From Vicinamibacteria bacterium (lineage in GTDB: Bacteria > Acidobacteriota > Vicinamibacteria > Fen-336): a DNA stretch of 64,000 nucleotides. Below the pieces are notes generated by a model. It saw nothing but the letters and a program-made list of their open reading frames with translations, was not told the origin of the DNA and did no database searches. Location of the stretch: the NCBI GenBank assembly GCA_035570235.1, contig DATMML010000091.1:62001-126000 (forward strand). The letters run 5' to 3'. How positions within the stretch are numbered: position 1 is the stretch's first letter; each line of letters begins with the position of its first letter. Position numbers and translations under genes: made by a program. Below, one piece after another: positions 29,264 through 32,186 of the stretch.

Positions 29264-30352
29264 TCAGGTGATGGCCAGCATCCGATCGAGGGCCGTGCGC
29301 GCCTCGCGGGCCGTGGCCTCCCCAACCCGGACAGGGTTCCGTACCTCGCCCTCCAAAAGGCCCTCCAGCACCCACAGCAGGTGGGGAGGGTCGATGCGAA
29401 ACATGGTGCTGCAGAGACAGAAGCAGTCGTCCAGGCTGACGACCTGCCTCGCCGGGGCCACCTCTCGGGCGAGGCGGTTCACCATGTTGAGCTCCGTCCC
29501 CACGGCCCACCGGGAGCCCACGGGGCTCTCCCGAACGGTCCGCAGGATGCCCTCCGTGGAGCCGATGGCATCCGCCCGCTGCGCCACCTCGAAGCGGCAC
29601 TCGGGGTGGACGATGACCTTGACCCCGGGGATCTCGCGCCGACGACCGTCGACCATGTCCGCGGTGAACCGATTGTGCACCGAACAGTGGCCCTTCCAGA
29701 GCAGCACCCGGGCCGCGTGGACCTCCGCCTCCGTGAGGCCGCCCGCATCCTCGTAGGGGTCCCAGATCGGCATGTTCTCCAGGGGGATGCCCATCCGATA
29801 CCCGGTGTTGCGGCCCAGGTGCTGATCGGGGAAGAAGAGTACCCGGGGTGCCCGTCGGAAGGCCCATTCCAGCACCGCGCGGGCGTTGGAGGATGTGCAG
29901 ACCGCGCCACCGTGGCGGCCCACGAACGCCTTGAGCTCGGCGGAAGAGTTCATGTAGGTGACGGGCAGGACCTCTCCCCCCACCACCGCGGTCACGTCGT
30001 CCCAGGCCGCTTCCACTTGGTCGATGGCCGCCATGTCCGCCATAGTGCAGCCCGCGCCCAGATCGGGAAGGAGCACGGTCTGGCTGGGGGCGGAGAGAAC
30101 ATCCGCCGATTCGGCCATGAAGTGAACCCCGCAGAACACGATGAACTCGGCATGCGGGCGGGCGGCCGCGGCTTGGGCGAGCTTGAAAGAGTCGCCGGTA
30201 ACATCAGCGTGGACAATCACTTCATCGCGCTGATAGTGGTGACCGAGGACGACCAGGCGCTCTCCCAGCTCCCGCTTGGCACGGACGATCCGCTTCTGGA
30301 CCTCGTCCGTTTGGGCGGCCAGGATGGGCTCGGGCAGGGCGACTTGCATCAT
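29264..30352 (-). CDS. nadA: Quinolinate synthase
   Basis: 362 residues, the long NadA type. HHYQRDEVI (38-46), HADVTGDSF (48-56) and FCGVHFMAE (73-81) are the triple-repeat motifs. Likely [4Fe-4S] ligands are Cys102 (GAGCTMAD), Cys223 (KGHCSVH) and one of Cys310, Cys312 or Cys314. It condenses iminoaspartate with dihydroxyacetone phosphate to quinolinate for NAD synthesis. A perfect -10 box TATAAT lies at 30377-30372, giving a leader of only about 13 bases. NadB and NadC are not in the window. Confidence 0.93.
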   Translation of the reverse strand: MMQVALPEPILAAQTDEVQKRIVRAKRELGERLVVLGHHYQRDEVIVHADVTGDSFKLAQAAAARPHAEFIVFCGVHFMAESADVLSAPSQTVLLPDLGAGCTMADMAAIDQVEAAWDDVTAVVGGEVLPVTYMNSSAELKAFVGRHGGAVCTSSNARAVLEWAFRRAPRVLFFPDQHLGRNTGYRMGIPLENMPIWDPYEDAGGLTEAEVHAARVLLWKGHCSVHNRFTADMVDGRRREIPGVKVIVHPECRFEVAQRADAIGSTEGILRTVRESPVGSRWAVGTELNMVNRLAREVAPARQVVSLDDCFCLCSTMFRIDPPHLLWVLEGLLEGEVRNPVRVGEATAREARTALDRMLAIT

Positions 30353-30371
30353 TCCAGCAACACCGCTCTCG

Positions 30372-30377
30372 ATTATA
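30372..30377 (-). promoter_or_regulatory. nadA: -10 box (TATAAT) of nadA
   Basis: The minus strand reads GGATATAATC, 20 bases before the nadA ATG. It is a perfect consensus -10, although no good -35 is seen. Confidence 0.45.
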
Positions 30378-30497
30378 TCCGGGGCGGCACCGGGAGCGGG
30401 ACGCTCCCCGACCGCCCCGGAGCCGATGGCGCGGACTTCACGCCGGGTCCGGCCGTGGCCTTCTCAAGGCCGGCGTCCGGAGCGACGAGCGCTCGGC

Positions 30498-30503
30498 TAT
30501 ACT
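30498..30503 (+). promoter_or_regulatory. -10 box (TATACT) of the DUF1285-like gene
   Basis: GGCTATACT ends seven bases before the GTG at 30511. If used, the first transcribed base would be about the G of the start codon, giving a leaderless message. Confidence 0.35.
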
Positions 30504-30510
30504 CGGGGCC

Positions 30511-30960
30511 GTGGCCTCCTTCTGGGAGATTCCCGAGGGCGTGCGCGTGCTGCCGGACGGCGCCTGGCGCGTCGGCGGCTTCCCCATCATTCACACCCCG
30601 TCCCTCCGTCATCTGAAGACCCGACTCGTCTTCGACGATGGGGGGGCCTTCATCGCGGACGGCTCCCAGCGTATGCCGGTGACCGTGGAGGGGCCGCCCT
30701 TCGAGGTCATGAGCCTGGTCCTGGATGGGACGAAGGGGGAGGTGCACGCGCTCCTCGACGACGGCACAGAAGAGGTCGTGACCGCCGGCTCCCTCTCCAT
30801 GAACGAGGAGAGCGGGCGCTTCGAGTGCCTGGCCCGGGGCGGGCGCTGCCGAGCCGTCTTCTCCCGGGCCGCCCACCAAAGCCTGCTCGACAACGTCGCC
30901 GAAGAGGAAGGCCGTTTCTTCATCCGCGTGGGGAGCCTCCAGATCCCGATCCACACCTAG
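30511..30960 (+). CDS. DUF1285-like protein
   Basis: 149 residues. The order of motifs follows DUF1285: PDGAWRVGGFPI (about 15-26), a basic helix, DDGGAFIADGSQRMPVTVEG (42-61) with GPPFEVMSLV, then a beta-rich C-terminal half. No cysteine pair, membrane segment or signal is present. The function of the family is unknown. The GTG start has no Shine-Dalgarno sequence but lies directly after a TATACT box, which fits leaderless expression. Confidence 0.62.
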   Translation: MASFWEIPEGVRVLPDGAWRVGGFPIIHTPSLRHLKTRLVFDDGGAFIADGSQRMPVTVEGPPFEVMSLVLDGTKGEVHALLDDGTEEVVTAGSLSMNEESGRFECLARGGRCRAVFSRAAHQSLLDNVAEEEGRFFIRVGSLQIPIHT

Positions 30961-30964
30961 CCGC

Positions 30965-30970
30965 TATACT
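30965..30970 (+). promoter_or_regulatory. -10 box (TATACT) before the nfo remnant and queG
   Basis: GCTATACT ends six bases before the ATG (30977) of the endonuclease IV remnant. The downstream queG gene may now be transcribed from this old nfo promoter. Confidence 0.35.
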
Positions 30971-30976
30971 CTCTGC

Positions 30977-31061
30977 ATGTTGCTCGGCGCCCACGTTATC
31001 CACCGCGGGGGGCGTGAACCAGTCGTCGGGGCAGGGGCGGGACATCACCGCCGACGCTATT
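30977..31061 (+). pseudogene. nfo: N-terminal remnant of endonuclease IV (nfo)
   Basis: ATG 30977 opens MLLGAHV, the standard start of deoxyribonuclease IV. After one extra base near 30997-30998 the frame continues STAGGVNQSSGQGRDITADA and I, which matches the next block of the family. The following QIFTKNQRQW block is missing, and the rest of the gene (about 250 residues) is gone; queG begins 88 bases later. The remnant therefore carries a frameshift and a large deletion. An intact copy may exist elsewhere in the genome. Confidence 0.6.
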
Positions 31062-31148
31062 CGGAGGCGCCGGGCCCTATCCCGGTCTGAAAGAGGAAGC
31101 TCACGCTGGTCCGCGGCCTGGTGCGGCGCGGGCGCGGCAGGGCATGAG

Positions 31149-32186
31149 ATGGACCCTTTCGCCTTGGCGCTGCACGCCAAGAGCCTGGCCCGGGAGAAGG
31201 GCTTCGACCTCGTCGGGATCGCCCGTGCCGACGCGCCCCCTGAGCTGGCCTTCTTCGCGGAATGGATCGCCCGCGGCCACGCCGGGGAGATGAGCTACCT
31301 CACGTCCCAGGTCGCACGTCGCCAGGACCTGCGGGCGGCCTTTCCTTGGGCTCGTTCGCTGATCGCGGTGGGCCTGCAGTACGACACCCCCTATCCGTAC
31401 TCCACGGAGGTTCCGAGCGACCGGGGATGGATCGCTCGCTACGCCTGGGGAGACGACTACCACGACGTGATGAAGACGATGCTGGAGGGGCTGGTGGAGG
31501 CCCTCCGTCAGGAGGCCGGCTCCTTCACCGCCCGCACTTATGTGGACACGGGACCAGTGGTGGAGCGCGCCTACGCGGCGGCCGCGGGGCTGGCGGCCTG
31601 GGGGAAGAATACCTGCCTGCTGCACCCCGAGCACGGTTCGTGGTTCTTTCTGGGGGAGGTGGTGACAGACCTCGATCTGCCTGCGGACGCTCCCCGGCCC
31701 GACCTCTGCGGGAGCTGCACCGCGTGCCTCGAGGCCTGCCCCACCGGCGCCTTGCCCGCGCCCTATGTCCTCGACGCCCGGCGCTGTATCAGCTACCTCA
31801 CGATTGAGGTGAAGGGTGCCTTGCCCGAGGAACGGCGCGCCGACCTGGGCCGCCACGTCTTCGGTTGCGACATCTGCCAGGACGTCTGCCCTTGGAATCG
31901 GAAGCGGCGCCAGCGTGGCGGTCCCGCCTTCGCGCCGAGGGCCGGCCTGGCGGCTCCGGATCTGGGTGACCTCGCCTCGCTCGACGATCCGGCCTTCCGC
32001 GAGCGCTTTCGCCGGAGCCCGGTGAAGAGGGCCCGGCGCCGCGGCCTTCTGCGCAACGTGGCCGTCGCCCTGGGCAACTCGGGTGACTCCTCCCGAAAAC
32101 CCATCTTGGAGACGCTGGCGAAGGACGAGGACCCTCTCGTCCGCGAGCACGCGCTCTGGGCTCTGCGCCGGCTGGGGGCGTGCTAG
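31149..32186 (+). CDS. queG: Epoxyqueuosine reductase
   Basis: 345 residues from ATG 31149. The N-terminal cobalamin-binding domain shows DLVGIARAD (about 19-27) and RYAWGDDYHDVM. Two [4Fe-4S] sites follow: CGSCTACLEACPTGA (about 185-199) and CDICQDVCPWN (about 243-253). The last 45 residues form a HEAT-like repeat (ALGNSGDSSRKPILETLAKD). It reduces epoxyqueuosine to queuosine in the wobble position of tRNA. No Shine-Dalgarno sequence is evident. It follows the nfo remnant, whose promoter it may use. Confidence 0.92.
   Translation: MDPFALALHAKSLAREKGFDLVGIARADAPPELAFFAEWIARGHAGEMSYLTSQVARRQDLRAAFPWARSLIAVGLQYDTPYPYSTEVPSDRGWIARYAWGDDYHDVMKTMLEGLVEALRQEAGSFTARTYVDTGPVVERAYAAAAGLAAWGKNTCLLHPEHGSWFFLGEVVTDLDLPADAPRPDLCGSCTACLEACPTGALPAPYVLDARRCISYLTIEVKGALPEERRADLGRHVFGCDICQDVCPWNRKRRQRGGPAFAPRAGLAAPDLGDLASLDDPAFRERFRRSPVKRARRRGLLRNVAVALGNSGDSSRKPILETLAKDEDPLVREHALWALRRLGAC

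Follow-up and report, generated by a model that had tools for sequence, protein, structure and literature searches.

A decayed endonuclease IV gene at its old site before queG in a Vicinamibacteria genome

Introduction

What does the short interval between hyp149 and queG hold in this genome, and does it still matter to the gene behind it? The window analysed here, a stretch of 64,000 nucleotides, carries on its forward strand hyp149 (30511..30960), which is intact, has 149 codons and starts with GTG, and queG, encoding epoxyqueuosine reductase (31149..32186), also intact and matched by TIGR00276 at E 8e-112. No family match was obtained for hyp149 in Pfam or NCBIfam. An earlier note on this DNA had read the interval as the start of a lost nfo gene, encoding endonuclease IV, whose promoter might have passed to queG. 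We conclude, with very little doubt, that positions 30977-31147 are an nfo pseudogene standing at its old site in the hyp149-nfo-queG run of a family of Vicinamibacteria (Acidobacteriota). The relic consists of both gene ends around an internal deletion. Among the PubMed Central papers listed in searches on this subject, none names this locus in the title or the first lines of the abstract. Searches of the window against Rfam at the gathering threshold and with ARAGORN gave no match, nor did the comparison with a plasmid collection.

Anatomy of the nfo relic

A spacer of 16 bases (30961-30976, forward strand as are all features described here) separates hyp149 from the relic and contains a TATACT box. 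The 5' piece of the relic (30977..31061), delimited with nhmmer, corresponds to the first 28 codons of nfo, in which the frame breaks between codons 7 and 8: the segment 30977-30997 encodes MLLGAHV, base 30998 is extra, and 30999-31061 encodes STAGGVNQSSGQGRDITADAI, in a frame that continues into queG. These same segments had been recognised in the earlier note as the N-terminus of Nfo, and sequence and profile agree on it. The note had also taken the remainder of the gene to be gone, which proved wrong. Beyond an internal-deletion junction at 31062..31063, where about 230 codons are missing, the 3' piece (31064..31147, from nhmmer and translation) holds the last 27 codons with the old stop TGA at 31145-31147, and a single base separates the relic from the queG ATG at 31149. 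Translated in phase with the first ATG, the 3' piece gives EAPGPIPV-stop-KRKLTLVRGLVRRGRGRA-stop, and the C-terminus of Nfo in two relatives, G003 and G010, reads ETPGP(A/I)EVWKKEIALLRGLVGRRPRG-stop.

The relic was compared with the Nfo of five relatives (G002, G003, G004, G009 and G010), against each of which the number of missing codons is 230. Codons 8-28 share 8-11 of 21 residues with these proteins, and the tail 9-12 of 20. Three changes disable the relic, namely the loss of about 230 codons, the frame break and an in-frame TGA within the tail piece (31088-31090). The five relatives have 20 invariant H/D/E columns, which we take to include the metal ligands of endonuclease IV; the parts kept in the relic cover only columns 6, 259 and 270, and in the alignment with the five relatives column 270 is K in the relic. 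As a functional endonuclease IV, the relic fails on both the family model (TIGR00587) and the conserved acidic and histidine residues.

A frame of 636 codons (30276-32186) is open from before hyp149 through the relic into queG, and gene callers could set the start of queG too early in such a frame. An upstream queG start in the middle frame of the relic was considered and rejected, since QueG of four relatives (G002, G003, G009 and G010) shares the first residue, aligning from residue 1 with QueG here.

Recognition of the relic by profile search

Similarity to 27 residues of a protein could be fortuitous, and the earlier note had stated that its disappearance in a profile comparison with the Nfo family would refute the reading. 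A DNA profile of nfo was built from the five relatives, all of the same family as this genome, and searched on both strands of 421,936 of its 5,718,581 bases (the window and 20 further stretches). The similarity survives this comparison: the best match in these 422 kb falls at 30977-31062 (33.9 bits, E 5.5e-10) and the second best at 31064-31128 (15.7 bits with a bias term of 12.9, E 1.7e-4), while the third reaches only E 0.39. The two pieces correspond to profile positions 1-85 and 775-839 of 855, and are collinear and in order. Taken alone, the tail piece would be a modest match.

It is extremely improbable that an ordinary intergenic spacer came to resemble the Nfo residues by chance. In favour of chance, searches by tblastn with single Nfo proteins give just E 0.33 to 1.4 at the relic, for four of the five queries and among the matches listed, and the middle-frame peptide (P0001) fits no Pfam or NCBIfam family, which is expected because the relic is broken across frames. 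Against it, the DNA profile recovers both ends of nfo, the site is the one where relatives carry the gene, and only one of 2000 dinucleotide shuffles of 30977-31148 exceeded the 3-bit reporting limit, with 6.2 bits versus the 33.9 bits observed.

The same site in related genomes

The distribution of nfo was examined with TIGR00587 in 60 genomes, that is, this genome (G000) and 59 relatives. Twenty of them have a match at E 0.001 or better, 19 over the curated cut-off. Within the family of the window nfo is found in five of 14 members, this genome included in the count, and the nine members without it include two, G001 and G007, that are less than 70% complete. As to the proposed alignment with relatives that keep nfo beside queG, the gene stands immediately before queG in all five same-family genomes that have it, and the start of queG overlaps the nfo stop or lies within a few bases of it. 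A relative of hyp149 precedes nfo in four of the five (G002, G003, G009 and G010; the copy of G009 is cut by the contig end), its stop overlapping the nfo start or lying within a few bases; in G004 nfo and queG are adjacent and no hyp149 match was found.

Among the family members without nfo the arrangement varies. In G006 and G012, which belong to one genus, hyp149 abuts queG with no nfo between them, and in G008 queG lies beside nadA with neither hyp149 nor nfo between. The three members of another genus, G005, G011 and G013, have hyp149 but not an immediately following queG: in G011 and G013 the queG match starts 1.2 to 1.4 kb beyond hyp149, and in G005 the two are on separate contigs. The nfo profile found no relic in 14 nfo-less loci around queG or hyp149 (53,462 bases; best E 1.2). 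That one site is found with an intact gene, with a relic and with neither supports decay in place. What is seen is a single gene loss caught part-way at a fixed site, some relatives still having nfo and others showing no detectable trace of it. The relic itself is known from one genome, which has no congener among the 60 and whose best queG match is 76% identical.

The gap might also be a fault of assembly, the genome in truth having nfo at this place, and the draft state of the assembly, in 138 contigs, speaks for this. It is nonetheless very unlikely, as the remaining ends have diverged and bear two further disabling changes, and a simple mis-join would account for neither.

Whether the loss is shared with G006 and G012 was approached with trees from RpoB, part of RpoC, QueG, NadA and hyp149, each covering only some of the genomes. 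One tree grouped this genome with G006 and G012 at 86/86; in a later tree neither grouping was rejected, whether with G006 and G012 (p-AU 0.48) or with G003 and G010 (p-AU 0.26). The loss of nfo here and its clean absence in G006 and G012 may thus be either one event or separate ones. Public records share sequence with the loci of some relatives: of about 140, 140 and 83 sampled words of 31 bases, 68 from the shorter G012 locus occur in JAJDNS010000204.1 (L048), 79 from the G008 locus in CADEEV010000002.1 (L049) and 53 from the G014 locus in a Vicinamibacteria MAG (L050). As G014 belongs to the order of this genome, the window would accordingly fall in Vicinamibacteria.

Two other observations touch on this distribution. 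Of the 60 genomes, 10 have hyp149; these belong without exception to the family of the window, and in several of them the gene adjoins nfo or queG. In G052, of the same class, nfo is broken too (L019, contig C3, about 78845-79631), with its halves in different frames and a TAA inside; this genome carries xth, the gene for exonuclease III.

Loss of nfo and the presence of exonuclease III

The earlier note had suggested looking for an intact nfo elsewhere in the genome. TIGR00587 has no match at E 0.001 in this genome, which is 99.57% complete. The broad fold family PF01261 (AP_endonuc_2) is matched at five places: two have strong matches to xylose or rhamnose isomerase models, below the full-length cut-offs of those models, two have weak matches headed by myo-inosose dehydratase, and one has no NCBIfam match at E 0.1. 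When the matched stretches were scanned, nfo was absent from the NCBIfam lists of all five. With five relatives keeping nfo before queG and no nfo match in this genome, the claim that nfo was lost by deletion stands.

Redundancy between the AP endonucleases Nfo and Xth is established for E. coli. Exonuclease III (xth, TIGR00633) is encoded by two genes in this genome and is present in 52 of the 60. The joint occurrence of the two enzymes was tallied over 48 genomes with completeness of 90% or more and contamination of 5% or less; G041, with a weak match below cut-off, was counted as lacking nfo, and G052, with its broken nfo, as having it. Five genomes have nfo only, 13 have both genes, 30 have xth only and none has neither (Fisher p 0.005, shared descent uncorrected). 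Moving G052 to the genomes without nfo gives p 0.004. If G010 is excluded as well, since this draft consists of about 630 contigs and its missing xth may be an assembly gap, p becomes 0.01. Thus all nfo-less genomes of these 48 carry xth, which fits the loss of a redundant AP endonuclease. Xth, in two copies here, would perform the same cleavage at AP sites and make nfo dispensable. Redundancy with xth probably allowed the loss of nfo, as judged from a correlation that does not take shared descent into account.

TATACT boxes and transcription of queG

Two TATACT boxes lie in the region. One (30965..30970) is located six bases before the ATG of the dead gene at 30977, as reported in the earlier note, and is a candidate promoter of the leaderless type; the other (30498..30503) is found seven bases before the GTG of hyp149 and may serve as a promoter of the same type for the whole run. 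PMC3160421 gives as the mark of leaderless genes a TANNNT located some 12 bases in front of the start codon, and reports such genes in three of three Acidobacteria genomes, with an average share of 13.3%. In the relic the first base of the box lies 12 bases upstream of the ATG, the spacing of that rule, and the position of the hyp149 box also fits the TA-like signal that this paper describes.

The pattern TATACT-N(0-28)-ATG has 79 matches in the whole genome, 28 of them with spacers of 5-9 bases versus about 10.6 expected from the other offsets (binomial p 8e-5). The limits of this range were set with the counts already in view, the 79 include the relic, and a few of them have a box or an ATG in common. 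The backward pattern has 40 matches versus the 79. Two further tests did not strengthen the case: among 30 of the sites, an ORF of at least 80 codons follows five of six with spacers of 5-9 bases versus 15 of 24 at other distances, and no positional peak is seen for the looser TANNNT in front of ATG, GTG or TTG over 422 kb. The enrichment of TATACT-ATG at 5-9 bases suggests leaderless genes in this lineage, and all in all the box in front of the relic resembles a leaderless start signal.

The box is not a conserved nfo promoter of the hyp149-nfo-queG arrangement, because TATACT is missing from the 100 bases before nfo in the four relatives that have hyp149 (G002, G003, G009 and G010), where hyp149 and nfo stand too close together to accommodate one; it is present, at six bases, in G004. 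Before hyp149 the box is found in G006 (five bases) and G012 (six bases) and is missing in G005, G011 and G013. Before queG, G001 has TATACT six bases from the ATG and G008 has CATAAT seven bases from the GTG.

These data bear on the proposal that queG inherited the nfo promoter through the deletion, which is supported only in part and not in the form proposed. The box does fit a leaderless signal that is modestly enriched in the genome, but queG already abutted nfo and four of the five relatives have no box. Before the deletion queG probably shared a transcript with nfo, because it abuts or overlaps the nfo stop in the five relatives. It need not have gained a promoter, since it was already placed behind nfo almost without a gap, and so was probably co-transcribed. 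Transcription of queG may still proceed from a shared upstream transcript starting at the hyp149 box, with the relic box perhaps contributing as well; judged from the sequence, the deletion would shorten the distance from a start at this second box to queG.

The relic could instead have been kept, the TATACT box (30965-30970) and a truncated frame of 37 codons, ending at the stop 31088-31090, now being the 5' leader of queG. The position of the box according to the leaderless rule, in so far as PMC3160421 gives it, and the 28 of 79 TATACT-ATG pairs at 5-9 bases (about 10.6 expected) are in line with such a leader, and the boxes before queG in G001 and G008 indicate that queG may be read in this way in some relatives. 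Nevertheless, the retention of a leader is unlikely: the genomes examined do not include a second one with a conserved leader, four of the five nfo-bearing relatives lack the box, queG of G006 and G012 stands right behind hyp149, the 5-9 range was chosen post hoc and TANNNT has no peak in 422 kb, and decaying DNA can give rise to a short A/T-rich hexamer fortuitously. Still more doubtful is that the box is a live leftover promoter, from which transcripts would start at the old nfo ATG, the 37-codon leader would be translated and the level of queG, and with it tRNA queuosine maturation, would be set. Should the leftover box be active, it would illustrate on a small scale how a leaderless start signal can outlive its gene.

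Concluding remarks

The interval before queG has similarity to nfo above chance, occupies the position of nfo in the relatives and is disabled. The nfo relic is clearly a well supported and ordinary case of gene decay. The intact nfo genes of G002, G003, G004, G009 and G010, recognised by TIGR00587, likewise lie before queG and have similar first and last codons; compared with them the relic lacks about 230 codons, its frame is broken and a stop interrupts its tail. The leaderless genes described in PMC3160421 have the same box spacing, but here the gene behind the box is dead. In bacterial pseudogenes removed by deletion, in so far as the accessible text of PMC2916853 presents them, the disabled gene is likewise shortened and its neighbours stay intact. 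The nfo relic is the same in kind as the pseudogenes presented there, with both ends of the dead gene here still recognisable.
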